The notes beneath the pieces are model-generated. The model did not search any database. It had not been told where the DNA came from and was given only the letters and a program-made list of their open reading frames with translations. Positions 1 through 29,425 of a stretch of 32,377 bases of DNA are shown piece by piece (within the stretch, counting starts at the first letter, position 1; each line of letters begins with the position of its first letter). A program made the position numbers and the translations under genes. Origin of the DNA: Candidatus Nutricula glyptotermitis (GTDB lineage: Bacteria > Actinomycetota > Actinomycetes > Actinomycetales > Bifidobacteriaceae). Location of the stretch: positions 1 through 32,377 of the forward strand of contig JAISFQ010000009.1 of the NCBI GenBank assembly GCA_031263495.1, given 5' to 3'.

Positions 1-376
1 CATTGCTACGCAATAGGGTCGAACGGGGTCAAATGCTCATCCGCTGGGTCAAATGCTCAATCGCATTTTCCTCCGTTCACGTTCTCCTGTTTAAGACCCC
101 GCATCGGAGTGCGGGGTTCAGCGGGGTGGAGTATGTGCGGGGTTCTGAGGTGGAGTGTGAGCGAGAGCAGTACCTTGTCATCCCGCAAGCGAATGCGATG
201 CGGGATCTGTGATTAGCGAGAAAGTACGTTACGTGCGAAGAAGCCAGATCCCGTGTCGCGCGCTTCGCACTTTTGCGGGACGACAAACAAAAAAGCACGG
301 TTGTGTGCTACCTAGATGACATGGGACGGCACTACTTCATGTACCTGAATAATGAATAATTATAGAAATTGGGCTA
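1..376. repeat. Intergenic repeat mosaic at left edge
   Basis: No credible gene is seen. The stretch holds modules that recur through the window: a hairpin with arms ACCCCGCA and TGCGGGGT near 94-119, phrases such as gggtcgaacgctcat, and the palindromic element listed separately at 175-286. The two overlapping reading frames here, one per strand, lie wholly inside these repeats and lack a ribosome binding site or family likeness. Confidence 0.7.
175..286. repeat. Palindromic element, copy 1 (pairs with 6163-6281)
   Basis: The outer arms TTGTCATCCCGCAAG (175-189) and CTTTTGCGGGACGACAA (270-286) are near-complementary. A second nested pair lies inside: GCGATGCGGGATCTG (195-209) and CAGATCCCGTGTCGC (245-259), matching at 13 of 15 positions. 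The middle is shared with the copy at 6163-6281. The outer arms differ from that copy but remain complementary within each copy. It carries no ORF of note, so it may be a MITE-like element or a structured RNA or DNA element. Confidence 0.6.
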
Positions 377-405
377 TTGCAACCGCGCACGAAACAGTGT
401 AAACT
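377..405 (+). promoter_or_regulatory. Probable promoter of the MFS switch operon
   Basis: TTGCAA (377-382), a 17-bp spacer and TAAACT (400-405) lie upstream of the poly-G leader ORF and the MFS gene. The predicted transcript would carry about 125 nt of 5' untranslated RNA containing heptamer repeats in both orientations. Confidence 0.55.
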
Positions 406-410
406 TTTTA

Positions 411-526
411 ATTAATGAGTAGTTAGTAAAAATGAGTAGTTAGTAATTAGTAATGAGTAATTGTTATGAGCGAAGCGAATTCCAAATCCCATTACTCCTT
501 ACTCATTACTCATTACTCATTAAATG
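411..526 (+). repeat. Heptamer repeats in 5' UTR, both orientations
   Basis: Forward units such as TAATGAG (about 415-462) are followed by their complements (CTCATTA, about 490-522), ending five bases before the Shine-Dalgarno sequence AAGGAG (527-532). TAATGAGTAA (451-460) can pair with TTACTCATTA (500-509, or one or two units later). A hairpin with several possible registers could therefore form directly upstream of the leader ribosome binding site and affect its exposure. Confidence 0.55.
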
Positions 527-537
527 AAGGAGTTTAT

Positions 538-594
538 ATGACAGAAACGAAACAGACCCCAAGTTTTAAGGGGGGGGGGGGGGCACACCGATAG
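538..594 (+). CDS. Poly-G leader ORF of the MFS gene (phase switch)
   Basis: The ATG at 538 has a good Shine-Dalgarno sequence, AAGGAG at 527-532, five bases upstream. With 14 G as written, the ORF encodes MTETKQTPSFKGGGG plus AHR and stops at TAG 592-594. Removing one G (13) or adding two (16) joins it in frame to the MFS gene through HTDRNAEPKYMKN. With 15 G it would stop at a TGA overlapping the ATG at 614 (ATGA). The ATG at 614 has no ribosome binding site of its own, so this leader is probably the real entry for ribosomes. A leader of the same design stands at 20220. The function of the peptide itself is unknown. Confidence 0.75.
   Translation: MTETKQTPSFKGGGGAHR
570..583 (+). repeat. 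Poly-G tract, 14 G (contingency locus)
   Basis: Fourteen consecutive G begin 32 nt after the A of the leader ATG and are followed by CACACC. Long G runs in a coding start region are classic slipped-strand phase-variation sites. The G count in an assembly may be a population consensus or an error. Confidence 0.85.
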
Positions 595-613
595 AAATGC
601 CGAGCCCAAATAC

Positions 614-1873
614 ATGAAAAACGCGTTAGATTTTACGACTAACAAATGGCGTGCGAACTTTTATGTGTTCAGAACTGGTCAATTTGTGACCAAGATTACG
701 TCGGCTGTCGTCGATTTTGCCCTAGTTTGGCAAGTCGTTCGAGAGACGAGTAGCGCGACTATGCTTTCTATGACCCAACTTGTATACATGTTGCCGATGA
801 TTCTGCTTATGCCATTCGTAGGTCCGCTTGTCGACAGAATGAACAAGAAGTTCCTGCTCATCGCACCTGATTTGGTGCTTGCCGTGCTTGCGGTGGTGCT
901 GATGGTTGTAGGCTATTTTTCCAATATACCGCTTGAACTTATATTCATTATGCTGTTTCTGCGAGGACTTGCGAGCGCATTTCAATCGCCTACTGTCTCG
1001 TCGATAAACCCAACGATTGTGCCTAGTGATTATATTACGAAAGCAGCAGGTCAGACGGCTATGATTAATTACGTAAGTTTTCTGATTGCGCCTGCATTTG
1101 CCGCTGCTGTGTTCGATATTTTACCACTGTACGTTATCATTTCGTTTGACATTTTGGGCGCGATAATCGGCACTCTCTGCACAGTGATTGCGAATATACC
1201 ATCATTCAAAACCAAAACTGCGCCACATTTTATAAAGGACGCGAAAGAGGGATTGCACCTGCTCAGAATGCACAAAGGCATTTATTATCTGCTTATCTAC
1301 GTCGCAGTATGGCATATTTTTGAAATGACAATCGGCCCACTGTTTCCACTGCTCATTACTGACTATTTCAACGGATCGTTTCAGCAAGTCGGAATCGCAG
1401 AAATCATATGGTCAGTCGGCACAATTACTGGTTCGTTCATTATTGGAGCGCGCGGAGCAGGCAAAAACCGCATGATTATGATGCTCGTTTGCACAATACT
1501 TTTCGGGCTACTCTCCATTCCAATTGCATTTTTACCACAAGATTTCACTGGTTTCGCTGTTTACATAGTGCTAATGGGAGTTTCAGGACTCGTCGTAACT
1601 GGGCTTGACGTGCCATTTAGTGCGATTATGCAGAGCAAATATCCGCCCGAAAAACTTGGTGCGGTTAATGGTGTTGCAAGTTCAATTACTATGATTTCAG
1701 GTCCGATTGGCTTGGCGCTCGTAGGTCCAGTAGTTGACGTAATCGGCATCGAAACTGTATTCACAGCAGTCGGCGTAACGACTTTGATTTTCGCACTCGC
1801 CGTCCGCTTCACACCTTCTGTTTGGCGGCTTGATAAAGATGTGCCGGATTATGTTAATAATGAGCATCAATAA
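614..1873 (+). CDS. MFS efflux transporter, Mef-like (DHA3 family)
   Basis: This 419-residue membrane protein closely resembles the Mef macrolide-efflux group of the major facilitator superfamily, which are proton-driven drug exporters. The family features are visible: the start WRANFYVFRTGQFVTKITSA, the loop between helices 2 and 3 (GPLVDRMNKKFLLIAPD, about residues 70-87), and FLRGLASAFQSPTVSSI (about 114-130). The length is usual for the family and the protein looks complete. The ATG at 614 fits the family start but lacks a ribosome binding site. The likely native start is the leader ATG at 538, which is out of frame with 14 G and in frame with 13 or 16. The gene therefore seems phase-variable, and the N-terminal module would sit in the cytoplasm. 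The substrate cannot be read from sequence. Confidence 0.88.
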   Translation: MKNALDFTTNKWRANFYVFRTGQFVTKITSAVVDFALVWQVVRETSSATMLSMTQLVYMLPMILLMPFVGPLVDRMNKKFLLIAPDLVLAVLAVVLMVVGYFSNIPLELIFIMLFLRGLASAFQSPTVSSINPTIVPSDYITKAAGQTAMINYVSFLIAPAFAAAVFDILPLYVIISFDILGAIIGTLCTVIANIPSFKTKTAPHFIKDAKEGLHLLRMHKGIYYLLIYVAVWHIFEMTIGPLFPLLITDYFNGSFQQVGIAEIIWSVGTITGSFIIGARGAGKNRMIMMLVCTILFGLLSIPIAFLPQDFTGFAVYIVLMGVSGLVVTGLDVPFSAIMQSKYPPEKLGAVNGVASSITMISGPIGLALVGPVVDVIGIETVFTAVGVTTLIFALAVRFTPSVWRLDKDVPDYVNNEHQ

Positions 1874-2746: not shown

Positions 2747-3470
2747 TATCAACACCTCCGCTCATCAGGTTAATCAGGTAATCTTCAAAATTGCCACCAC
2801 TTTCAGCCCTGAGCGCATGCATACTGGTTTCGCGAATCACACTCCCACCAGCGATAATGCCGACAGTATCCGCAATGTGCTCAATCTCGCTGATAATGTG
2901 GCTCGAAATCATAACAGTCACGCCGTCATCATGCGCAAGAGACAGCAACAACTCGCGCACTTCACGTATGCCAACAGGGTCAAGACCATTAATCGGCTCG
3001 TCCAACAGCAGTATTTTGGGCTTATGTATGATTGCGCGCGCTATCCCAAGTCGCTGACGCATTCCAAGCGAAAATGTCGCCACTTTTTGACTACCAGTGC
3101 TGGGCAAACCAACTCGTTCTAGCGTTTCAGCGATATCTGCCTTACCTTCCAAACCAAGATACGCCAAATGAATCCGCAAGTTTTCCGTAGCAGACAAATG
3201 CTCATAAAAGACTGGCACTTCAATAATACTGCCAATCTTCATTAGCACCGACCGTCGGTATGTTACGGCATTCAGCCCATCAACTTCTATCTTCCCAGAA
3301 GTCGGTCGCAACAGCGTGCATATCAGTTTCAATACGGTCGTTTTTCCAGCACCATTCGCACCCAAGAAACCGTATATTTCCCCTGCTCGGACGGATAAAT
3401 TGCAATCACATATTACCTCCCTATCGCCGAACGTTTTACTCAAGGCTCGCGCCTCAATGATTGATCCCAT
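2739..3470 (-). CDS. ABC transporter ATPase, BcrA/CcmA type
   Basis: A 243-residue ATP-binding subunit. Walker A is GANGAGKTT (37-45), the signature is FSLGMRQR (133-140, the SLGMR form seen in the bacitracin/lantibiotic-immunity subfamily), Walker B is ILLLDEP (153-159) and the switch histidine is H191 (SSHIISE). The phrase EVPVFYEHLSATENL is also typical of that subfamily. The start at 3470 has AGGAGGG five bases upstream. It is the first gene of a two-gene operon with the permease, transcribed from the promoter at 3526-3554, which contains an operator matching that of the nearby tetR gene. It powers export with the permease at the inner face of the membrane. Confidence 0.92.
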   Translation of the reverse strand: MGSIIEARALSKTFGDREVICDCNLSVRAGEIYGFLGANGAGKTTVLKLICTLLRPTSGKIEVDGLNAVTYRRSVLMKIGSIIEVPVFYEHLSATENLRIHLAYLGLEGKADIAETLERVGLPSTGSQKVATFSLGMRQRLGIARAIIHKPKILLLDEPINGLDPVGIREVRELLLSLAHDDGVTVMISSHIISEIEHIADTVGIIAGGSVIRETSMHALRAESGGNFEDYLINLMSGGVDNA

Positions 3471-3525: not shown

Positions 3526-3554
3526 GTATAACATACCGGCGGTCGGTCGGTCAA
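3526..3554 (-). promoter_or_regulatory. ABC operon promoter with TetR-type operator
   Basis: On the minus strand there is TTGACC (3549-3554), a 17-bp spacer, then TTATAC (3526-3531). The spacer holds the motif ACCRACCGCCRGTATG, also present between the -35 and -10 of the tetR promoter (5338-5366). On the plus strand the site reads CATACCGGCGGTCGGTCGG (3532-3550). A repressor bound here would block RNA polymerase directly. Confidence 0.8.
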
Positions 3555-5337: not shown

Positions 5338-5366
5338 ATTATAGCATACTGGCGGTTGGTATGCAA
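5338..5366 (-). promoter_or_regulatory. tetR promoter with palindromic operator
   Basis: On the minus strand there is TTGCAT (5361-5366), a 17-bp spacer, then TATAAT (5338-5343), close to consensus. The palindrome CATACTGGCGGTTGGTATG (5345-5363, plus strand) fills the spacer, as expected for autorepression. Confidence 0.85.
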
Positions 5367-5957: not shown

Positions 5958-5973
5958 GGGGGGGGGGGGGGGG
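5958..5973 (+). repeat. Intergenic poly-G tract, 16 G
   Basis: Sixteen consecutive G lie within a repeat module, just before cgtaacgtgatgcgg. Unlike the tracts at 570 and 20252, it has no leader ATG, no Shine-Dalgarno sequence and no gene downstream. Confidence 0.85.
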
Positions 5974-15252: not shown

Positions 15253-15460
15253 TAAGGAATAATGAGTAATGAGTAATGAGTAATGAGTAATGAGTAATGA
15301 GTAATGAGTAATGAGTAAGGAGTAATGAATAATGCTGTTAGTTAATAGTTAACAGTTAATAGTTAATAATTTGGAATCGGAATTCGCCTACGGCTCATAC
15401 TCCATCTCAGAATTCCGCACGTAGATGCGGAATCTTAATTAAAGTATTGCGTAGCAATGC
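15234..15460 (+). repeat. Left direct repeat flanking the R-M module
   Basis: It begins with tgagagcgttagtaattagt (15234-15253), the 3' end of the MATE gene, then heptamers, then an 89-bp stretch (15324-15412) identical to 17955-18043, then 48 bp (15413-15460) identical to 18065-18112. The right copy is at 17906-18112 and includes a 21-bp insertion. Confidence 0.85.
15260..15315 (+). repeat. (TAATGAG)8 heptamer tract
   Basis: Eight perfect tandem copies of TAATGAG follow the MATE stop, then imperfect units. Because the unit is 7 nt and contains stop codons, any three copies give stops in all three forward frames. The right flanking repeat has only about two or three units, so the number of copies varies. 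Confidence 0.9.
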
Positions 15461-15476
15461 GATTAGCAAACTGTGG

Positions 15477-15482
15477 TAGAAT
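15477..15482 (+). promoter_or_regulatory. -10 box for leaderless dam gene
   Basis: TAGAAT lies 7 nt before the ATG at 15490, with gtgg just upstream as at the surface-protein promoter (19984). No good -35 box is visible. A start at the ATG itself would give a leaderless mRNA. Confidence 0.5.
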
Positions 15483-15489
15483 ATTAAGT

Positions 15490-16251
15490 ATGAGTTCTAT
15501 TGTTGTAGAAAAAGTTCATGCAGAAAGTGTGACTAATGCATTAAGTGCGCCTAAACCGTTCGTTAAATGGGTCGGTGGGAAGCGTCAATTGTTGCCAACC
15601 ATAAAAGACAATTTACCTGTTGGGATTGGCGAAACCATTACAAAATATGCCGAACCGTTTGTGGGTGGCGGTGCTTTGCTGTTTAACTTGCTTCCAAACT
15701 ATAACTTCAGTGACGCGTATATATCCGACATGAACGTTGGACTAATTACAGCGTACAACACTATTCGAGATGATGTATACGAACTGACCGACTTGCTAGA
15801 AGCCATACAAAATGAGTTTTACACTTACAAAACTGAAGAAACCAAAGCCAATTATTATTACAACATGCGTTCGCGCTACAATGAATTGTTAAACAGTGCA
15901 TCGTTTTATGAAATAGACAACAAAACCGAACTCGCAGCACTATTCATAACACTCAACAAAACATGCTTTAATGGAATGTACAGAGTGAATGCAAAAGGCG
16001 AATTTAACGTTCCGCTTGGCAGGTATCATGAGCCATTGATTTGTGATGCTGACAATTTGTTTGCAACAAGTGAGTACTTACAAAGTGTTACTATACATTG
16101 CGGAAACTATCAGGATGCAGATAGTTTTATTGACGACCAAACATTTGTATACTTTGATCCACCATATCGCCCAATAACACAAACATCGGCATTTACAGCG
16201 TATACTGATGGCGGGTTTAAGGAAGGAGTAGAATATGTCAAAGCAGCGTGA
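15490..16251 (+). CDS. Dam-like adenine DNA methylase (D12 class), C-terminally truncated
   Basis: A 253-residue N6-adenine methyltransferase of the Dam/DpnM type. PFVKWVGGKRQLL (23-35) and EPFVGGGALLFNLL (55-68) form the AdoMet site, NKTCFNGMYRVNAKGEFNVP (156-175) is a strong family signature, and VYFDPPYRPI (220-229) is the catalytic motif. Dam enzymes usually continue about 80-90 residues past DPPY. Here only 27 follow, ending GGFKEGVEYVKAA, so some 60 residues with the later conserved motifs are missing. The final codons double as the ribosome binding site and start of the next gene, with a 17-nt overlap. It may be inactive or a recent deletion fusion. I prefer the ATG at 15490 over an earlier in-frame one because of the -10 box 7 nt upstream. 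Confidence 0.85.
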   Translation: MSSIVVEKVHAESVTNALSAPKPFVKWVGGKRQLLPTIKDNLPVGIGETITKYAEPFVGGGALLFNLLPNYNFSDAYISDMNVGLITAYNTIRDDVYELTDLLEAIQNEFYTYKTEETKANYYYNMRSRYNELLNSASFYEIDNKTELAALFITLNKTCFNGMYRVNAKGEFNVPLGRYHEPLICDADNLFATSEYLQSVTIHCGNYQDADSFIDDQTFVYFDPPYRPITQTSAFTAYTDGGFKEGVEYVKAA

Positions 16252-16969
16252 TGATGTAATTGAAGCACTAGAAAAACTTGGCGGATATGCGACATTTGGA
16301 AAGTTGAATCAAACAATTGACTTTACAAAATGGATAACTAAAACGCCAGAAGCGAGTGTTAGGCGAATAGTACAAGATAGCACTGAGATTTTCCGTATAC
16401 GAAAAGGTTTGTGGGGTCTTGAATCAAAAAAGCGCGAAATTATGGCAAAACTTGGACTAGATAACTTAGATGAAAGCAGTTCAGAAAAGAAAAGTGTGGA
16501 CTTTACACATTCGTATTTTCAAGGGCTACTAACTGAAATCGGAAAAATGCAAGGGCTCAAGACATATGTTCCTGCACAAGATAAAAATAAGTTATTTCTT
16601 GAAACAAAACTCGGCGAGATTGCAGACACTACAACCATTTTACCATTTACGTACGAAAAAATAACTAACAAAGCAAGGACTGTTGATGCAATTTGGTTTA
16701 ACAAAGACCGAGACTTACCTAATGCATTTTTTGAGGTTGAACATTCTACTGACATTAAGAACGCATTGTCAAAGTTCTATGAATTGCAAGATTTTAGAGC
16801 AAAGATGATAATTGTTGCAGATGTTCATCGGAAACCACAGTTTGATAAAATAATGACAGATTCACTTTGGCGTAGCATTCGCAATATAGTAACATTCCAG
16901 TCATACGATAAAGTAGTGGATTTACATAAAAAGACAATAGATTTATACAGTTTGGGAGAAATATTATGA
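16235..16969 (+). CDS. Predicted type II restriction endonuclease (HTH plus PD-(D/E)XK-like)
   Basis: A 244-residue protein in a methylase operon. The N-terminal 65 residues (DVIEALEKLGGYATFGKLNQ ... RRIVQDSTEIFRIRKGLWGL) look like the winged-helix domain found on many restriction enzymes. The C-terminal part has D151 in TVDAIWF and E167/E169 in NAFFEVEHSTDI, a pattern seen in PD-(D/E)XK-like nucleases (here E-x-E rather than E-x-K). The start has AAGGAAGGAG upstream, inside the truncated dam gene. It would cleave DNA not protected by the partner methylase. The target sequence cannot be read; GATC is a guess from the Dam-like partner. Confidence 0.7.
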   Translation: MSKQRDDVIEALEKLGGYATFGKLNQTIDFTKWITKTPEASVRRIVQDSTEIFRIRKGLWGLESKKREIMAKLGLDNLDESSSEKKSVDFTHSYFQGLLTEIGKMQGLKTYVPAQDKNKLFLETKLGEIADTTTILPFTYEKITNKARTVDAIWFNKDRDLPNAFFEVEHSTDIKNALSKFYELQDFRAKMIIVADVHRKPQFDKIMTDSLWRSIRNIVTFQSYDKVVDLHKKTIDLYSLGEIL

Positions 16970-17190
16970 GCAAAAGAGTAGTAGAAGTTGAAATTGCAGA
17001 AACGCTTTATAAAACAATAAAAGTTGAAATACCTGATGAATACGCTGGTAATGTTTTTCATTATGCAGAGCGAAAAGTCACTCGTGACTACAAGGACGAA
17101 GAAATAATATTATATTCAGATGACTTTATTGGTCCAACTCAACTCAGGTCAGTATATGGTGACGAAATTATCGACTGGCACGATATGTAA
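16966..17190 (+). CDS. Small protein of the R-M operon, unknown function
   Basis: A 74-residue, acidic protein (MSKRVVEVEIAETLYKTIKV ...), starting on an ATGA overlap with the nuclease stop, so it is coupled to it. I do not recognise a family. It shares a reading frame with the next methylase; its TAA (17188-17190) is only 24 nt before the methylase GTG, and no other stop intervenes. It could be a control or inhibitor protein for the nuclease, but nothing in its sequence proves that. Confidence 0.6.
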   Translation: MSKRVVEVEIAETLYKTIKVEIPDEYAGNVFHYAERKVTRDYKDEEIILYSDDFIGPTQLRSVYGDEIIDWHDM

Positions 17191-17214
17191 AGTTTTATTC
17201 TCAAGACAACCACC

Positions 17215-17901
17215 GTGTGGAGTTTCCCAGAGCGTGGCAAGTGGGCAACTCATGATGCTGCGTGGCGTGGAAACTGGTCGCCATATATTCCACGCAACAT
17301 AATTTTACGCTACTCAAATGAAAGCGATACAGTTTTAGACCAATTCGCTGGTGGCGGAACGACGCTTGTCGAAGCAAAACTGTTGAACCGCAATGCTATT
17401 GGTATTGACGTGAACGATGATGCACTTGCGCGCTGCAACGATAAATTAAACTTTGATTACGATTCGGACTCAGTAATTGAAGTTAGAAAAGGCGATGCGC
17501 GTGACTTAAAAGATATTGGCGATGAATCAATTGACCTTATCGCAACACACCCACCATACGCCAACATTATAAAATATAGCGACGACATACCAGAAGACTT
17601 ATCACACTTTAAGTTAAACGAGTTCGTAGTTGAAATGGGAAAAGTCGCCGAAGAATCGTTTCAGGTGTTGAAAAAGGGCAAGTTCTGCGTAATTCTGATT
17701 GGTGATACACGCAGTAAAGGCATGGTTCAACCGCTTGGAATGCAGGTTATGCAAAAGTTCGCAGAAGCAGGATTCGCGCTCAAAGAAATCATCATCAAAG
17801 AACAACACAACTGCCGTGCAACTGGCTTTTGGAAAACCAACAGCATTAAGCACAACTTCCTACTTCTAGCGCATGAATACTTGTTCGTGTTTAGGAAATA
17901 G
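17215..17901 (+). CDS. Site-specific DNA methyltransferase (N4/N6 type)
   Basis: About 228 residues of a DNA amino-methyltransferase. WSFPERGKWATHDAAWRGNW (2-21) and SPYIPRNIILRYS (22-34) match the usual N-terminus of this family. The AdoMet motif is LDQFAGGGTT (41-50), the catalytic motif is THPPYANIIKYSDD (111-124), and ILIGDTR, QHNCRATGFW and NFLLLAHEYLFVF complete the conserved C-terminal part. GTG 17215 has no ribosome binding site. Upstream the same frame reads back through LKTTT to the TAA of the small ORF, so the start may be a non-ATG codon used after termination there, or the frame may once have been joined. It is probably the protecting partner of the nuclease, more intact than the Dam-like gene. 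Confidence 0.82.
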   Translation: MWSFPERGKWATHDAAWRGNWSPYIPRNIILRYSNESDTVLDQFAGGGTTLVEAKLLNRNAIGIDVNDDALARCNDKLNFDYDSDSVIEVRKGDARDLKDIGDESIDLIATHPPYANIIKYSDDIPEDLSHFKLNEFVVEMGKVAEESFQVLKKGKFCVILIGDTRSKGMVQPLGMQVMQKFAEAGFALKEIIIKEQHNCRATGFWKTNSIKHNFLLLAHEYLFVFRK

Positions 17902-20203: not shown

Positions 20204-20219
20204 GACACAAGGAGGACAT

Positions 20220-20309
20220 ATGTCAACACAAAAAATAACCTCTCCAATTAAGGGGGGGGGGGGGGCACACCTTATGCCCCAAAGTATAACAAGGCGCACT
20301 TTAACGTGA
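20220..20309 (+). CDS. Poly-G leader ORF of the surface protein (phase switch)
   Basis: The ATG at 20220 follows AAGGAGG at a normal distance. With 14 G, the ORF reads MSTQKITSPIKGGGG, then AHLMPQSITRRTLT, and stops at TGA 20307-20309, overlapping the GTG (20306) of the main gene as GTGA. With 12 or 15 G the leader fuses in frame through TPYAPKYNKAHFNVKRLL to the signal peptide. With 13 G it stops early (TAA). The design copies the leader at 538: the same 32-nt ATG-to-tract distance, the same CACACC after the tract, a similar peptide, and a PKYxK motif in the fused frame. Confidence 0.78.
   Translation: MSTQKITSPIKGGGGAHLMPQSITRRTLT
20252..20265 (+). repeat. Poly-G tract, 14 G (contingency locus)
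   Basis: Fourteen G after ATTAA, followed by CACACC. The tract starts 32 nt after the A of the leader ATG, exactly as at 570-583. It sets whether the leader is fused, coupled or cut off from the surface-protein gene. Confidence 0.85.
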
Positions 20310-23300
20310 AACGCCTACTTTCGCAAGTTCTAGCAGTAACTTTATTGGGTGCTACGCTTGTTTCTGTTCCAACGAATGTAAATGCAGCACCGCCAACCAA
20401 TTTTGCTGATGTGGCTCAATGCTATAACACAAGTAGCAATCAATTTGAAGATTCGTCAAATAGTGGTAAGTGCGGAGGGCAGGGCTCAAATCAAGAAGCA
20501 TTCGTGCTTGAAGTTGTTACGACTGCATCGAACCAAACTGCCTACATTCCCGTTAGAGCAGTAAGTACTGGTCCAGATATTTATAACGTTTCATACAACT
20601 GGGATATTAATTGGGGCGATACTACGGAAGAGACTAAAACTGGTGTTAGTGACAACCCTGTCGCTTTTCACCTCTCGCACCAATACACAACCGCAGGCAC
20701 ATATAACATAGTCATCACTCCAAAGGACGATGCTGCGCTAGGCTGGCTAGACGCATTTGGCAGATATAGCAGTACAACCTACAGTGCTGGTATAACGAGA
20801 ATCCTAACGCCATTTCCTGAGCTTTCAAGAACGCCAAGAGCCAATGCGTTTTATCAGACTTTCCAGCAAATGCAAGACGCTAAAAACTTGCCAGAAAACT
20901 TATTCTGGGGAATTAACACATCACAGTTAACAGACTTTTCGAACATGTTCAGCAGCACTTTTTCAAACTATGCATACAAAGCCGCCGCATTAACAGACGT
21001 GACAATCCCAGAAAATTTGTTTAGTGAACTAGATACTACATCTGGAATCACTTTCTCAAATATGTTCAATAGCACTTTCACCTATTACGCACACTCAAAC
21101 ACTGCCGCAACAAGCATAGCAATTCCAGAAGATTTGTTCGAATCAATTAACACATCAAACGGGACGACTTTCACTTCTATGTTCAGTAACACTTTCGACC
21201 ATGCATATTACTCTAATGTTAACGCAGTCACAGCAGCAATCCCAGAAGGTTTGTTTAGCGAAATCGACACATCAAACGGGACGACTCTCAATTCCATGTT
21301 CCAAGACACTTTCACCTATTATGCATACTCAAACACTGCAGCCACAGACGTTTCAATCCCAGAAGATTTGTTCGAATCAATTAACACATCAAGTGCAACT
21401 AATCAAAGTTCTATGTTCAATAACACTTTCTTCGATTACGCATACTCAAACACTACAGACGCAGACATTTCAATTCCAGCAAAGTTATTTCAATCAATTG
21501 ACACAGAAACTGCAACTAACCTAAGTTATATGTTCAGCAATACTTTCAACAACTATGCCTACTTAGATACTGCAGCAACAGATATATCAATCCCAGAAGG
21601 CTTATTTGATACAATAAAAACACCTAAAAATGTGACCTTCAATTATATGTTCCGAGGCACTTTCAATGGTTATGCAAGCAACGCACCAGTTGGAGCAAAG
21701 CAAAGTGCAACAATCCCAGAAGAATTATTCGAGGCTCTTGATTTTACTGCGGGAACGCTTTTTTCTAATATGTTCCAAGATACTTTCCTAAACTATGCAA
21801 ATCAGCGAAAAGTAACCTTTGATACAGGACAAGGCTCATTTACCAACGACCCTGACAATCCTCAGACATTATCAGGCAACGCATTCGGAGTAAAAGCAGA
21901 TAATGCATCTCCAAGCGCTAACCCGACACTCGACAAAAATTCGAAAGATATAAAGCCAGCATATAATAATAACACAGGATTAACGGTTCAAGATCCAGGC
22001 GTTCCACAATTACAAAACAGTGCGTTTAAAGGCTGGTATTTGGATGCCGATTTTTACGATCCATTTGACCTTACTGTAAACAGATTATTTGCGTCCGACA
22101 CAAGCACAGAAGTAAGCGATGCAACTCTGTATGCCAAATTCCAAATATTAGCCGCTCAAACAGTGCCAGATAATTGGGAAAGTCCTGTCTTTTGCTATGA
22201 TTTCACGACATTTGCTCCAACTACCAAAACTGATGATGCGTGCGGAGGAATAAGCGCAACAGAAGAAGAAGGCTTTATATTAGAAGCACAAGTCGAAGAA
22301 AACGATGAAGTCAATATTCCAGTTGCAGGAAAAACGCACAACAATGCTTTTGGCGTTCCATACAATTGGAGAGTGGATTGGGATGATGGTCGCGAAACAG
22401 TCACAGGAGAGCAAATTTCCGCTGCTAGCAAAGTAATCACTCATAAATATACAGAGGAAGGAACGTACCAAATCAGGATAACTCCGATTGATATTGATGC
22501 TACTGTTTTAGGATGGTTTGACGCATTTGGCAGCCTTACTTCTGGTGCTGACACAAAAATAACAAGGATTCTGACGCCATTTTCTGCTCTTGCCAAAACT
22601 CCAAGACCTTACGCATTCTATGAAACTTTCTATAACTTCCAAAATATGCAAAACTTGCCAGCAAACCTGTTTATTTCAGTAGACACAAAAAACGTGCAGG
22701 ACTTTTCTTATATGTTCCACCGCACTTTTGCAAATTATGCACGCGTGAGTGAAGCGGATGATTTAGCAATCACAGATGATTTATTTAATACAATAGACAC
22801 ATCAAACGGAACTAATTTCTCTCTTATGTTCTGCCAAACTTTCTCTGATTTTGCAAGGGACGTATCAACTGATTTGAAACTAAGTTTAACGATTCCATTA
22901 GATTTGTTCGCTGATCTTGTTGTTTCAAATGGAACGACTTTTACGTATATGTTCGAAGGAACTTTTGGTGGCTACGCAAACATAAGAGAAGTAACTTTTG
23001 ACTTAGATGGCGGAACACTTCCAGATGACCCTGCCAATCCTCAAACTTTATTAAACAACACATGGGGTGTAAAAGCAGATAATGCAACGACAGGATTAAC
23101 TAATCCACAAATCACAAAAGATTCAACAAACATAAAGCCATCATACAATGTAGGGCTATCTGTCACAAATCCAGGAAACCCGACTAAAGCAGATAATTTG
23201 TTTAGAGGCTGGTATCTTGATAGTAACTTTGAATTTCCATTTAACATTACGACAGATAAAGTCTACACATCTGATATAAGCACATTGGAAACTGATGTGC

Positions 23301-26300
23301 ATTTATACGCAAAGTTTATAAGCGATTCTAGCGTATACGTGCCAGATACTTGGGCAGATGATGCTTATTGCTACGATTTCAACGCTGGAACGTCAGATTA
23401 TTCATACACTGACCCCTGCGGAGGAAACGGAAGTACAGATAAAGAAGGCTTTATATTAGAGGCGACAGTCGAAGCAGGAGATGATGTTCTGATTCCGGTC
23501 GCAGGAAAGGACGAAAACAATGCTTTCGGCGTTCCATACAATTGGAGCATAGATTGGGATGATGACGCTGTCACTGAAACGACTGAATTAACTTCTGCTA
23601 GAAACAAAACAATCTCGCACAAATATCAAACAGCAGGAACTTATCAAATCAAGATAACTCCAGCACAAACTCCGTCAAGTGCAGGCTGGTTTGATGCATT
23701 TGGAGGTCTTAGTTCTGTTGACACAAAGATAACTAGAATCCTGACGCCATTCTCTGTTTATGCAAGAACTCCACGACCTTATGCTTTCTATCAAACTTTC
23801 CAGAATTTCCAAAACATCCAAAACTTGCCAGAAAACTTATTTGCAGGAGTTGATACAAAGAGTTTAACTATTTTCTCAAGCATGTTCCGTGAGACTTTCT
23901 TAAACTATGCTTACAATACTCAAGCAGAAGACATATCGATTCCAGCAGATCTATTCGCTGAATTAGACACAGAGGAGGCAACTAACTTCTCTAGCATATT
24001 CCAAAGCACTTTCTCAGGTTTTGCGTATTCTAACACAAAAGCAGAGGACATATCAATCCCAGAAGGTTTATTTGACGCACTTGATGGAGAAAAAGTAACT
24101 AATTTCTCAAGCATGTTTCGTGAGACTTTTGCTAATTATGCGTATTCTGCGACAAATGAAGTGAAAGCAGAGGCAACGATTCCAGAGGAGCTGTTTGCTG
24201 AAATTAGCGTGAGTGCTGGAACAAGTTTTGGTTATATGTTCCAGAACACTTTCCAAAATTATGCGAACAAGCGTAAGGTAGAGTTCAATTTAGATGGTGG
24301 TGCACTTCCAGATACTTCTAGCAATCCACAGATATTGTCAGGCATTAATGCTTGGGGAGTTGCAGCAAGCACTGCAGAAGCAGGAGCTAATCCAAGAATC
24401 ACTAAAGATTCTGATGATATAAAGCCCTCGTATAACAATGAAACAGGGTTATCCGTCGCTAATCCTGGGAATCCCACTAAAACTTCTACTACGTTTATTG
24501 GCTGGTATGCAGATGACCAATTTGAAACTCTGTTTACGTTTACAACAGATAAAGTATATACTGCCGACGTGGATACAGATACGAACGCTGTGACTTTGTA
24601 TGCAAAATTCCTAACAATCACGGCGCAAACTGTTCCAAGCACTTGGTCTGCGGATGCTTTATGCTATGATTTTGTGGGTTTCGCACCAACTGATGCTAAT
24701 GATGCTTGCGGAGGAGAAGGTAACACGAAGGAGGAAGGCTTTATACTCCAAGTCACTACGACAGCAGAAAATGAAAGTGCTTCTATTCCGGCTGCTGGAG
24801 TTAGCGGAACCCAATGGGGTGCGCCAGTGTATAATATCCCATTCAACTGGACTATCGAATGGGGAGATAGCAGCGCTAGGACTGTAACAGGCGTTTCGTA
24901 TTCGTATCTTTACACTGTAATCTCTCACGTCTATAAAGAAGCAGGAACTTATCAAATTAAGATAACTCCGACTGGGGAAGCCGAAGCGGGTTGGTTTGAT
25001 GCATTTGGCTATGGAACTGCTACAAACAATGCTAACATAACTCGCATTCTAACTCCATTTTCCAAACTCGCAAGAACTCCAAGGGCGTACATGTTTTATT
25101 ATACTTTCAGCAATATGCAAAACATTCTAAACCTACCAGAAAACTTGTTTGAAGGAGTCGACACATCAAAAGTGATAGACTTTTCTAATATGTTCAATTA
25201 CACTTTCTTTAACTACGGTTATAATGGTGCTAACTTGCAAAATATGCAGATTCCAGAAGATTTATTTGCGGAATTGGACACAGGAGATGGAGAAAACTTC
25301 TCGTATATGTTCCAGAGAACTTTTGAGCAGTATGCGCGTATGAATACCTCAGTAAATGACACATCGATTCCAGAAGGTTTATTTGCGGAATTGGACACAG
25401 AAAGTGGAACTAATTTCTCATATATGTTTGACAGCACTTTCTTAAACTATTTCTATATGAACGGTGCATCAGCTGACATAGAGCTTCCAGAAGAATTGTT
25501 TGAATCAATCGACACATCAAGTGGAGAAAACTTTTCTCATATGTTTAACAGAACTTTTGCATATTATGCTCAGGCTGGTAACGATGACCAAGTCGAGATA
25601 GCGATTCCAGAAGGTTTGTTTGCATCAATCGACACATCAAATGGAAAAGATTTATCGTACATGTTCACAGAAACCTTCCGTCAATATGCCTATCGCGCCA
25701 CAGGAGAAGATGCAAGCAACTCACCTCTAATCCCAGACAAGTTGTTTGAAGCAATCAACACAAAAAGTGGAACTGATTTCTCTTACATGTTCTATAACAC
25801 TTTCAATTCTTATGCTTATGCTAACACAGAACTTAGCGTAAAAATTCCAGGCGAATTGTTTAGCAAAGTAGATACATCAAACGGAGAAAACTTCTCTAAC
25901 ATGTTCTATGGCACTTTCCAAAGTTTTGCTGATAATGCTGCATATTCATCCGACATCAAGATTCCAGAAGAGTTATTTAACTCGATATATACGGGGAATG
26001 GCAAAAACTTCTCGTATATGTTCGCCTACACTTTTGGAAATTACGTCGGCTCTAATGCTACTGCAACAGATGTAACAATCCCAGAAGGCTTGTTTAGTTC
26101 ATTAGACACAACAAACGGTGAGAATTTTGCTTATATGTTCCAAAGCACTTTCAATGGCTATGCTTCATTGGCAAAAGCAACAGACATATCAATTCCGGAA
26201 AACTTATTTGCTGGATTAGATACTACAAATGGAAAGAACTTTACTGGAATGTTCTTTGCAACTTTCGTATACTATGGAAATGGAGCGACAGATGCTGTAA

Positions 26301-29300
26301 AAGCAAGTGCAACGATTCCAGAAAACCTGTTCTCTGGCATTAAAGTAACGAATGGAGCGACCTTTACTGACATGTTCAATGGACCTTTCACTAACTACGC
26401 AAACAAGCGAAAAGTGACTTTTGAGTTAGGTAATGGAAATTTTTCAGGTAGCCCTGATAATCCTCAGATATTAACCAATAACGCTTGGGGAGTAAAGGCA
26501 GGCACTGGAGCACCAGCAATGAACCCTACAATCGACAAAAACTCTGTAAACATAAAGCCATCGTATTACAATAGCACGGGATTGCCTGTTGCAGATCCAG
26601 GTGAAGTGACTAATAGCAGTGGGACATTTGAAGGTTGGTATAAAGATGACGCAGCAGCAAGTCGATTTATCATTGGCACAGACAAGTTATACACAAACGA
26701 TGTGAGCACAGAGGAGAATAATTTGACTTTGTATGCTGGATATGGTTATACATTGACATATAACGCAAACTCTGGCACTGGAAATGCACCCACTGGAATT
26801 GTCTCATGCGCTCTGAAACCTGGCGATTCTTCCTGTGAAATAACTGTCCTAGATAACGCAGGGTTTGAAAAGAAAGGCTTTACATTCACTGGCTGGAACA
26901 CTCAGGCTGACGGCACGGGAGATGCTTACGTTGCAGGTGACAAAATATCCATTAGTAGCAATGGTGAAATATATGCTGTTTGGGAAGCCAACACATACAC
27001 TCTAACCTATAACGGAAATGGCAACACTGGAGGCACTCAGCCTACTGGACCTCATACATGCACAGTTACGCAAGACACATGCGATATAGATGTCGCAGGT
27101 AACACAGGGGATTTTGTCAAAACAGGTTACACATTTGACACGTGGAACACTCTTGCTAACGGTTCGGGTAATGATTATACAGCAGATGCCAAGATAACCA
27201 TGGACGGCGACGCTGAGCTCTATGCTAAATGGAACGCTGACACTTATACGATAGAATTTGACTTAACAAGTGCTGAAAATAATGATGCTGAATGCGCTCA
27301 ATTTGATGTAACATATGATGTGGCTGTGCCGTCATTTACTTGCACCGTGCCTCCCACTAAGGCAAATCATGCAGTTGATGGCTGGCAAATTGGAAGCACT
27401 GATATTACGCTGTTTGATGAAAACGGTGCTATTATAAAAGGTGTTAGCGGCTATACAGACGCTTCGGGCAAATGGATAAACGCAGATGGTGGTGTGACGC
27501 TAGAGCCAAAATGGAAAGTTACGGCTTATACAGTAACGTTTGTTTCTAATGATGGGACAAGTGTTCCTCCTAAAACAGTGCCAGTAGGCGAAACAGTGGA
27601 TAAGCCAGATGATCCTACTAAGACTGATTACACATTTGTTGCTTGGTATAGTGACATCGATTTGCAAACTGAGTGGGACTTTGAAACAGACCTTATAACA
27701 GAGGATGTTGCTCTATACGCTAAATGGGTTATTACCACTTATACTGTTTTGTTCAATTCTGCTGGCGGAACGGATGTTGAGTCTAAAACAGTGCAAACAG
27801 GCGAAAAAGTAGATAAACCAGATGACCCTACTAGGACCTATTACACATTTGATGCTTGGTATAAAGATGACGCTTTGCAAACTGAGTGGGACTTTGGAAC
27901 AGACGTTGTAACAGGAAACATTACTCTATACGCTAAGTGGATTATTGACACTTATACTGTTTCGTTTGTTTCTAATGATGGGACGAGTGTTCCTTCTAAA
28001 ACAGTGCAAGTAGGCGAAAAAGTGGCTAAACCAGATGATCCTACTAGGCTTTATTACACATTTGTTGCTTGGTATAAAGACATTGATTTGCAAACTGAGT
28101 GGAACTTTGCAACAGACGTTGTAACAGAGGATGTTATTTTATATGCGAAGTGGGTTATTGACACTTATACTGTTTCGTTTGATTCTGATGGTGGAACGAG
28201 TATTGCTCCCAAAACAGTGCAAGCAGGCGAAAAAGTAGATAAACCTGTTAATCCAACTAAGGCTGATTACACATTTGTTGCTTGGTATAAAGATTCTGCG
28301 CTACAAACTGAGTGGAACTTTGGAACGGACATAGTAACAAGCGATATTACATTATATGCCAAGTATATGTATATTTCACCCACACCCACACCCACTCCTC
28401 CTACTCCTGCTTCAAAAGATGCACCTACTCCAACTGGCGTCAAACTCGCTACGACAGGTAAGGCAAATGAACTAAAAGTCACTTGGAGTGTCCCTAGTGC
28501 TAATAATGTTGCTAGTTTCAAAGTAACGCTGGACAATGTATTAGGAACTGCGAAGAACGAATCTATTTTGTCTGCTGTTCAAGAAACAGTAAGCATAACT
28601 GTTCAGGCAAATAAACGAGAGGCTATATTCACTAATGTGCCTACGGGAACGTACAGAGTGTCTGTTCAAGCGATTGCTAAAAGTGGAGGAAAATCGTCGG
28701 CTATCATTTGGTCCAACCAACTCTTACATAAATTAGATGTTGCGAAAACATATAGTTTCGTAGATTTAAAGGGCGTTGCGAAAGATAGAGCAAATGATAT
28801 TGCTTGGTTATCTTCTGTCGGAGTAACTATTGGAACTAATTGTAATGCGGATGGCACAGGTTCTGCTTGCAAGTACAACCCAACTACTTCGGTAAATAGA
28901 GGTGCTATGGCAGAGTTTCTATACAAATTGTCTGGAAAAACTGTGACAGTGAACAAGATTCCAAAGATTTCGGATATATCTAAACTTACTACTCCTAGGA
29001 AAGATGCTATAAAATGGCTAGCATCAGAAGGAATTACTGTATTATCAAGCGGTAAGTATAATCCGCAAAACACAGTAAACAGAGGAGCAATGGCTGAGTT
29101 CATGTATAAACTTGCAGGTCATCCTGGAAGTGTCAAGTATGGAGACGCAAAAAGCGACCACGTGGATCCAAAGACAGTTGTGGCACAGGAAAAGATACTC
29201 AAAAATGACAAAAAACTCCAAGCACTGAAGAAGTCCAATCCGAACCGTTACTACGACATTCTATGGCTTGCAAAGATGAACATTACTGTGCCGATTGATG

Positions 29301-29425
29301 GAAAATACTACAATCCACAGAGCGCGGTAAACAGAGGAGCAATGGCTCAATTCATGCATAAACTGTACTATGTTATGATGACTGGACAAGCAGTACCTGC
29401 AAGTGGTGATGTACCTAATGTATAA
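20306..29425 (+). CDS. Giant repeat-built surface protein with SLH-like C-terminus
   Basis: A secreted protein of 3039 residues. The signal peptide (MKRLLSQVLAVTLLGATLVS, cleavage likely at VNA-A, about 29) is followed by four similar modules starting near residues 38, 628, 1025 and 1452. Each has a header with two cysteines (CYDF...CGG), a PKD-like domain (W-I-D-W-G-D ... HKYxxAGTYQIKITP), then a row of about 39-residue units, I-P-E-x-L-F-x-x-I-D-T-S ... F-S-x-M-F-x-x-T-F-x-x-Y-A, resembling DUF285/BspA-like repeats (8, 3, 4 and 11 units), and an InlB B-repeat-like end. Further B-repeats follow, including four of 71 residues (27524-28375), then a Pro/Thr linker (about 2690-2712), an FnIII-like domain, and three actinobacterial SLH-like repeats (VNRGAMAEF). 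It has no LPXTG motif. It is likely an adhesin held to the wall by the SLH-like part. The GTG start has only a weak upstream site; expression depends on the leader at 20220. Confidence 0.88.
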   Translation: MKRLLSQVLAVTLLGATLVSVPTNVNAAPPTNFADVAQCYNTSSNQFEDSSNSGKCGGQGSNQEAFVLEVVTTASNQTAYIPVRAVSTGPDIYNVSYNWDINWGDTTEETKTGVSDNPVAFHLSHQYTTAGTYNIVITPKDDAALGWLDAFGRYSSTTYSAGITRILTPFPELSRTPRANAFYQTFQQMQDAKNLPENLFWGINTSQLTDFSNMFSSTFSNYAYKAAALTDVTIPENLFSELDTTSGITFSNMFNSTFTYYAHSNTAATSIAIPEDLFESINTSNGTTFTSMFSNTFDHAYYSNVNAVTAAIPEGLFSEIDTSNGTTLNSMFQDTFTYYAYSNTAATDVSIPEDLFESINTSSATNQSSMFNNTFFDYAYSNTTDADISIPAKLFQSIDTETATNLSYMFSNTFNNYAYLDTAATDISIPEGLFDTIKTPKNVTFNYMFRGTFNGYASNAPVGAKQSATIPEELFEALDFTAGTLFSNMFQDTFLNYANQRKVTFDTGQGSFTNDPDNPQTLSGNAFGVKADNASPSANPTLDKNSKDIKPAYNNNTGLTVQDPGVPQLQNSAFKGWYLDADFYDPFDLTVNRLFASDTSTEVSDATLYAKFQILAAQTVPDNWESPVFCYDFTTFAPTTKTDDACGGISATEEEGFILEAQVEENDEVNIPVAGKTHNNAFGVPYNWRVDWDDGRETVTGEQISAASKVITHKYTEEGTYQIRITPIDIDATVLGWFDAFGSLTSGADTKITRILTPFSALAKTPRPYAFYETFYNFQNMQNLPANLFISVDTKNVQDFSYMFHRTFANYARVSEADDLAITDDLFNTIDTSNGTNFSLMFCQTFSDFARDVSTDLKLSLTIPLDLFADLVVSNGTTFTYMFEGTFGGYANIREVTFDLDGGTLPDDPANPQTLLNNTWGVKADNATTGLTNPQITKDSTNIKPSYNVGLSVTNPGNPTKADNLFRGWYLDSNFEFPFNITTDKVYTSDISTLETDVHLYAKFISDSSVYVPDTWADDAYCYDFNAGTSDYSYTDPCGGNGSTDKEGFILEATVEAGDDVLIPVAGKDENNAFGVPYNWSIDWDDDAVTETTELTSARNKTISHKYQTAGTYQIKITPAQTPSSAGWFDAFGGLSSVDTKITRILTPFSVYARTPRPYAFYQTFQNFQNIQNLPENLFAGVDTKSLTIFSSMFRETFLNYAYNTQAEDISIPADLFAELDTEEATNFSSIFQSTFSGFAYSNTKAEDISIPEGLFDALDGEKVTNFSSMFRETFANYAYSATNEVKAEATIPEELFAEISVSAGTSFGYMFQNTFQNYANKRKVEFNLDGGALPDTSSNPQILSGINAWGVAASTAEAGANPRITKDSDDIKPSYNNETGLSVANPGNPTKTSTTFIGWYADDQFETLFTFTTDKVYTADVDTDTNAVTLYAKFLTITAQTVPSTWSADALCYDFVGFAPTDANDACGGEGNTKEEGFILQVTTTAENESASIPAAGVSGTQWGAPVYNIPFNWTIEWGDSSARTVTGVSYSYLYTVISHVYKEAGTYQIKITPTGEAEAGWFDAFGYGTATNNANITRILTPFSKLARTPRAYMFYYTFSNMQNILNLPENLFEGVDTSKVIDFSNMFNYTFFNYGYNGANLQNMQIPEDLFAELDTGDGENFSYMFQRTFEQYARMNTSVNDTSIPEGLFAELDTESGTNFSYMFDSTFLNYFYMNGASADIELPEELFESIDTSSGENFSHMFNRTFAYYAQAGNDDQVEIAIPEGLFASIDTSNGKDLSYMFTETFRQYAYRATGEDASNSPLIPDKLFEAINTKSGTDFSYMFYNTFNSYAYANTELSVKIPGELFSKVDTSNGENFSNMFYGTFQSFADNAAYSSDIKIPEELFNSIYTGNGKNFSYMFAYTFGNYVGSNATATDVTIPEGLFSSLDTTNGENFAYMFQSTFNGYASLAKATDISIPENLFAGLDTTNGKNFTGMFFATFVYYGNGATDAVKASATIPENLFSGIKVTNGATFTDMFNGPFTNYANKRKVTFELGNGNFSGSPDNPQILTNNAWGVKAGTGAPAMNPTIDKNSVNIKPSYYNSTGLPVADPGEVTNSSGTFEGWYKDDAAASRFIIGTDKLYTNDVSTEENNLTLYAGYGYTLTYNANSGTGNAPTGIVSCALKPGDSSCEITVLDNAGFEKKGFTFTGWNTQADGTGDAYVAGDKISISSNGEIYAVWEANTYTLTYNGNGNTGGTQPTGPHTCTVTQDTCDIDVAGNTGDFVKTGYTFDTWNTLANGSGNDYTADAKITMDGDAELYAKWNADTYTIEFDLTSAENNDAECAQFDVTYDVAVPSFTCTVPPTKANHAVDGWQIGSTDITLFDENGAIIKGVSGYTDASGKWINADGGVTLEPKWKVTAYTVTFVSNDGTSVPPKTVPVGETVDKPDDPTKTDYTFVAWYSDIDLQTEWDFETDLITEDVALYAKWVITTYTVLFNSAGGTDVESKTVQTGEKVDKPDDPTRTYYTFDAWYKDDALQTEWDFGTDVVTGNITLYAKWIIDTYTVSFVSNDGTSVPSKTVQVGEKVAKPDDPTRLYYTFVAWYKDIDLQTEWNFATDVVTEDVILYAKWVIDTYTVSFDSDGGTSIAPKTVQAGEKVDKPVNPTKADYTFVAWYKDSALQTEWNFGTDIVTSDITLYAKYMYISPTPTPTPPTPASKDAPTPTGVKLATTGKANELKVTWSVPSANNVASFKVTLDNVLGTAKNESILSAVQETVSITVQANKREAIFTNVPTGTYRVSVQAIAKSGGKSSAIIWSNQLLHKLDVAKTYSFVDLKGVAKDRANDIAWLSSVGVTIGTNCNADGTGSACKYNPTTSVNRGAMAEFLYKLSGKTVTVNKIPKISDISKLTTPRKDAIKWLASEGITVLSSGKYNPQNTVNRGAMAEFMYKLAGHPGSVKYGDAKSDHVDPKTVVAQEKILKNDKKLQALKKSNPNRYYDILWLAKMNITVPIDGKYYNPQSAVNRGAMAQFMHKLYYVMMTGQAVPASGDVPNV
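27524..28375 (+). repeat. Four tandem 213-bp coding repeats (B-repeats)
   Basis: Four copies with a period of 213 nt (71 codons), starting at about 27524, 27737, 27950 and 28163. Each encodes TYTVxFxSxxGT ... KTVQxGEKVDKPDDPT ... AWYKD ... LQTEW ... LYAKW. They are similar enough in DNA to recombine, so copy number may vary between strains. Confidence 0.85.

Follow-up and report, generated by a model that had tools for sequence, protein, structure and literature searches.

A poly-G tract between a leader ORF and a Mef-like exporter gene as a probable translational phase-variation switch, one of a genome-wide set in Candidatus Nutricula glyptotermitis

In Bifidobacterium breve, pili are switched by replication slippage at the sortase-pilus G tracts of bbr_0113 and bbr_1889 (PMC9187656). 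In the "phasomes" of Campylobacter, Helicobacter, and Neisseria, many G/C tracts shift the reading frames of surface, glycan, and RM genes (PMC6321876, PMC2823697, PMC5084427), as we propose for the tracts described here. The organism considered here is an uncultured member of the Bifidobacteriaceae that is linked to termite-gut flagellates and has a reduced genome. The description of Nutricula glyptotermitis, for which one genome is known (assembly of 1.54 Mbp, corrected to 2.01 Mbp; GC content 43.55%; Xfp absent), reports genome erosion, missing mutS/mutL, and an absence of sortase pili for the lineage, and leaves homopolymers, frameshifts, and phase variation unmentioned (PMC11707648). Among the papers covered by our search, we found nothing relevant on phase variation in endosymbionts of termites. 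The MAG comprises 1,546,520 bases, is 77% complete, and lacks Xfp, which is present in nearly all genomes of its family. The window, by which we mean the whole 32,377-nucleotide stretch that was analyzed (contig C100), has a GC content of 42.8%.

The window contains an MFS exporter gene behind a short leader and a G homopolymer, and a second switch of the same build in front of the gene for a giant surface protein. The features, in window coordinates, are the following.

370-416, plus strand: promoter-like segment shared with the region upstream of the paralogue C102 (TTGCAA at 377-382, 17 nt, TAAACT at 400-405)
417-526, no strand: AT-rich intergenic repeat DNA between the promoter-like segment and the leader, missing before C102
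527-532, plus strand: Shine-Dalgarno (SD) sequence AAGGAG of the leader, with 5-nt spacing to ATG 538
538-594, plus strand: leader ORF as assembled (14 G), MTETKQTPSFKGGGGAHR, 18 codons, TAG at 592-594
557-569, plus strand: conserved sequence on the 5′ side of the tract (CCCC followed by AAGTTTTAA), which could pair with the first Gs; a hairpin appears in the minimum-energy fold
570-583, plus strand: 14-G homopolymer, the proposed slippage tract
584-613, plus strand: linker in which the MFS frame is open; the third frame closes at TGA 615-617, on the MFS start
614-1873, plus strand: MFS exporter of 419 amino acids, a distant relative of the Mef macrolide exporters
20209-20265, plus strand: second switch, built in the same way (SD AAGGAGG; leader ATG 20220; flank CTCTCCAATTAA, 14 G at 20252-20265)
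20306-29425, plus strand: giant surface protein of 3039 amino acids (PKD, Listeria-Bacteroides repeats, SLH), downstream of the second switch

We enumerated the frame outcomes for tracts of 11 to 18 G and found that tract length modulo 3 decides how the exporter gene is read. With 13 or 16 G, the leader reads through into the MFS frame (product of 444 or 445 amino acids); with 12, 15, or 18 G, the leader stop TGA 615-617 overlaps ATG 614; and with 14 G, the leader closes at TAG 592-594 after 18 codons. The fusion at 13 or 16 G, the ATGA overlap at 15 G, and the early stop at 14 G had all been claimed in a first-pass annotation of this DNA and were borne out by the enumeration, while direct reading confirmed the strong SD of the leader ATG 538 and the run of 14 G that it had described. 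The same annotation regarded ATG 614 as devoid of a ribosome-binding site, and we found no SD match of at least 4 nt before this codon. Because about half of the control ORFs in this genome are also without an SD, its lack before this codon counts for little by itself. The claim that the exporter is off as assembled is not directly supported: a homopolymer count from a fragmented metagenome assembly is unreliable, and the off state is therefore uncertain. At the second switch, 15 G gives a fusion, and 14 G places the leader stop across the GTG start of the giant protein.

We propose that the tract in front of the exporter is a translational phase-variation (contingency) switch that works via replication slippage and is one of a genome-wide set, a reading to which we assign a probability of about 0.8. 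In the mechanism that we infer from the sequence, ribosomes would start at ATG 538, and slippage of the G tract during replication would set the frame. Tracts of 13 or 16 G would then yield the leader-exporter fusion (on), 14 or 17 G would make the leader stop some 20 nt short of the native start (off), and 15 G would lead to termination on the native start, maybe with weak re-initiation (intermediate). Phase variation is supported by the presence of one leader build at unrelated genes and by target classes that are typical of contingency genes. The slippage measured at the B. breve pilus tracts (PMC9187656), a precedent from the same family, and the missing mutS/mutL reported for the lineage (PMC11707648) also speak for it. 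With such switches, the bacterium could probably vary its surface proteins, its transporters, and a restriction enzyme randomly between on and off.

The genome contains 39 G runs of at least 8 nt. Runs of at least 11 nt number 30 in 1.55 Mb, where Markov models of the genome's own sequence predict 0.008 to 0.09, and most family members have few tracts. About 15 tracts lie in gene leaders or inside genes. The genes bearing tracts include two Mef-like exporters, two ABC ATPases, SLH/Listeria-Bacteroides repeat proteins (among them the giant protein of the window), a VanY-like carboxypeptidase, a GtrII glucosyltransferase, lipoprotein-like proteins, and a type I RM gene. Of 12 leader ATGs, 9 have an SD match of 5 nt or more, versus 2 of 12 native starts. 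The assembled states of the 12 leader loci are mixed (3 fused, the rest not), and the nearest thing to an observed length change is a trio of homologous upstream cassettes within this genome (C42, C105, and C109), which carry 17, 14, and 12 G, respectively. Assembly near the tracts is poor, because 13 of the 30 are no more than 800 nt away from a contig end, where 5 are expected; G tracts are also known to disturb Illumina reads and to deviate from reference assemblies (PMC9187656).

Some G tracts occupy other positions. A 12-G tract in the type I RM gene (L047:2073-2084, G000 contig C40, gene on the minus strand) lies between two specificity domains, with the methylase fused, and slippage there would change DNA specificity. 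A 13-G tract (L041:2040-2052, G000 contig C14, minus strand) is found in a promoter-like spacer right before an ATG and is possibly a promoter-type switch in this genome too. In a related genome of the family (G062, L205-L224), probably Ancillula, 14 of 20 fetched G tracts are located in promoter spacers of 17 to 21 nt (TTGACA-like..G11-15..TATAAT), and many of the downstream genes look secreted; these tracts likely represent transcriptional phase variation in that lineage. Within the window, a 16-G tract at 5958-5973 is intergenic and has no TAA flank, and the ORFs at 15457-17901 resemble, by eye, DNA methyltransferases and a restriction-type protein.

At 8 of the 12 leader loci, one of the frames without fusion terminates at the native start codon (ATGA, GTGA, or TAATG), compared with 26% of control ORFs (binomial test, P = 0.003), although the support from this test is only moderate because the starts were picked manually and the loci include two homologues. 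No frame is fused at C103 and C89, where the overlap is the sole link from leader to gene; the native start of C103 has its own SD. Given that the overlaps recur at 8 of 12 loci, a coupled state, in which re-initiation would take place at the overlapping start, is plausible. The slipped-strand switching between fused, coupled, and off states that was postulated in the first-pass annotation is supported in part. The switch as such has strong support from the genome context, with about 15 similar loci, contingency-type target genes, a shared flank, an intact exporter gene under purifying selection, and cassette copies of unequal tract length. The fused and off outcomes are clear in the sequence, the coupled one has gained support short of proof, and we consider the three-output reading plausible.

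A profile search assigned the exporter to MFS_1 (E = 1e−26). The gene product scores 238.5 bits against TIGR00900, which is under the cut-off, and 237.5 bits against the Mef(A) model, with lower scores for the other Mef models. The earlier label "Mef-like" is fair in that similarity to the Mef macrolide exporters extends along the whole length, but the Mef(A) score is far under the cut-off of 675 bits and sets the window exporter apart from them. The gene is intact, and dN/dS is about 0.23 for all three exporter genes of the genome (the window gene, C102, and C146), indicating purifying selection. The paralogue C146 (59% identical) has the switch again, whereas C102 (64% identical) is without leader and tract and starts, with no SD, at the ATG equivalent to 614. 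Local alignment revealed that a 47-nt segment is common to window positions 370-416 and the upstream region of C102. In C102 this segment directly precedes ATGAAAAATGCG, while in the window it stands about 200 nt away from ATG 614, with the leader and the tract in between. The segment may function as a promoter, at 8 of 12 consensus matches only and under the threshold of the scanner, and the promoter scan gave no match above threshold. Because the ATG of C102 adjoins the promoter-like segment, its transcript may be leaderless. Because C102 starts at the equivalent ATG behind the shared segment, the window locus probably gained its leader and tract by insertion between the promoter and the gene, an event that would have left ATG 614 internal and without a ribosome-binding site. 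This arrangement suggests that an older gene, possibly a leaderless one, acquired the switch later, and the native start ATG 614 seems older than the leader start.

Two kinds of repeat were also noted. AT-rich intergenic (ATGAGTA)-like repeats in both orientations flank the exporter gene (415-524 and 1862-2027). A TetR-operator-like palindrome, ACCGACCGNCGGT, occurs in 52 exact copies genome-wide and is absent from the reversed control; it is found in the window at 3247-3259, 3535-3547, and near 5345-5363, and also before the paralogue C102 and the switched ABC gene C38.

TAA directly precedes 18 of the 30 tracts of this genome versus 3 of 1,048 tracts in 188 other genomes of the family (Fisher test, P = 2e−28), and only surface, transport, and RM genes have tracts with the shared flank. 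Among the 18 TAA-type tracts, CC is present 5 to 9 nt upstream in 16 (background at TAA sites, 13%) and a CCC-like run in 15 (background, 4%), a pattern that was defined after seeing the data. The motif CC-N3-WW-TAA-GGGG has 11 copies in the genome, all 11 of them before a long tract, and none in the reversed control. The flank usually consists of a C-run, an AT-rich spacer, TAA, and G(n), and it occurs in both coding orientations. It is kept where the tract is read as poly-G (leaders ending ..IKGGGG or ..FKGGGG) and where it is read as poly-C, with several leaders starting M(K/I)NL(L/V). Its occurrence in both orientations therefore points to constraint or common descent at the DNA level. A peptide-level reason for the flank was dropped, since the flank persists with the tract read as poly-C. 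A hairpin between C-run and G tract is possible and appears in 3 of 4 minimum-energy folds. Leader folding energies were no better than those of shuffled sequences (z-scores not significant), and the case for the hairpin therefore comes solely from the C-run statistics; we hypothesize that it could play a role in slippage. A scan of genome contigs for WWTTAA-G10 gave, among the matches listed, scattered matches in which no second motif-rich genome was recognized, and the full flank in viral contigs yielded 10 scattered single matches. We suggest, tentatively and with considerable doubt, that the C-run, AT-rich spacer, TAA, and G12-18 could form a dedicated slippage element that was selected at the DNA level and spread to, or arose at, many genes of one lineage, with the hairpin tuning tract mutability and the leaders built for fused, coupled, and off outputs.

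Long homopolymers can slip during transcription too, and the tract might act mainly via slippage of RNA polymerase, which would give mixed transcripts in every cell and set an expression level instead of a heritable state. A short hairpin in the transcript, seen in the folds above, would fit this explanation, but the folds have no significant z-scores, the DNA itself differs in length between copies of one cassette, and at bifidobacterial G tracts the measured effect was replication slippage (PMC9187656); we consider such a mode of action unlikely. Distinctly improbable, in our judgment, is neutral decay, by which slippage in the absence of MutS/MutL would have lengthened the tracts while selection was relaxed, and genes now out of frame would be pseudogenes. 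The exporter gene is intact and under purifying selection, the flank is conserved and restricted to tracts of three functional classes, and tracts are few in most family members, even though the erosion and the missing repair genes described for the lineage (PMC11707648) would be in line with decay.

The leader could instead be a bystander, with the exporter always translated from ATG 614 at any tract length, as the many SD-less control ORFs and the SD-less start of C102 would allow. However, the C102 ATG adjoins the promoter-like segment, so that its transcript may be leaderless, while ATG 614 lies about 200 nt further downstream and is internal, and a leader with a strong SD runs toward it in a build that recurs at unrelated genes, making this explanation very improbable to us. 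That the poly-G runs are sequencing errors absent from the genome is barely credible: the excess of tracts near contig ends and the disturbance of Illumina reads by G tracts (PMC9187656) would agree with it, but a coherent leader and gene flank the tracts on both sides, the tracts have a specific flank in common that is followed by a long tract 11 of 11 times, and the doubt concerns no more than their exact length. We favor replication slippage that causes translational phase variation as the explanation.

Phase variation is best known from animal pathogens, and here a large switchable set would be present in a reduced genome of an uncultured member of the Bifidobacteriaceae. If this is true, changing selection, arising from the host flagellate, from phage, or from inter-host transfer, would be strong enough to maintain random switching, and some "pseudogenes" in such MAGs may be off-state genes. 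The shared flank offers a way to test whether sequence context tunes the mutability of homopolymers.

The pilus switch of B. breve, a member of the same family, resembles the exporter locus in that replication slippage at a G tract joins two ORFs and the second ORF has no active initiation (both putative here). It differs in that each pilus cluster has a single tract, located in the first pilin gene, whereas about 15 unrelated genes carry tracts here, with short leaders that have an SD, a conserved flank (C-run/AT/TAA), and stop/start overlaps that recur; the gene proposed to be switched in the window encodes an MFS exporter and not a pilin of a sortase cluster. The phasomes of Campylobacter, Helicobacter, and Neisseria belong to a different phylum, and the present set differs from them in its tract flank, shared in both coding orientations, and in its short leader ORFs before the native start. 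We know of no shared tract flank in those phasomes. The novelty lies in the lineage concerned, in how large the set is, and in the shared flanking DNA.
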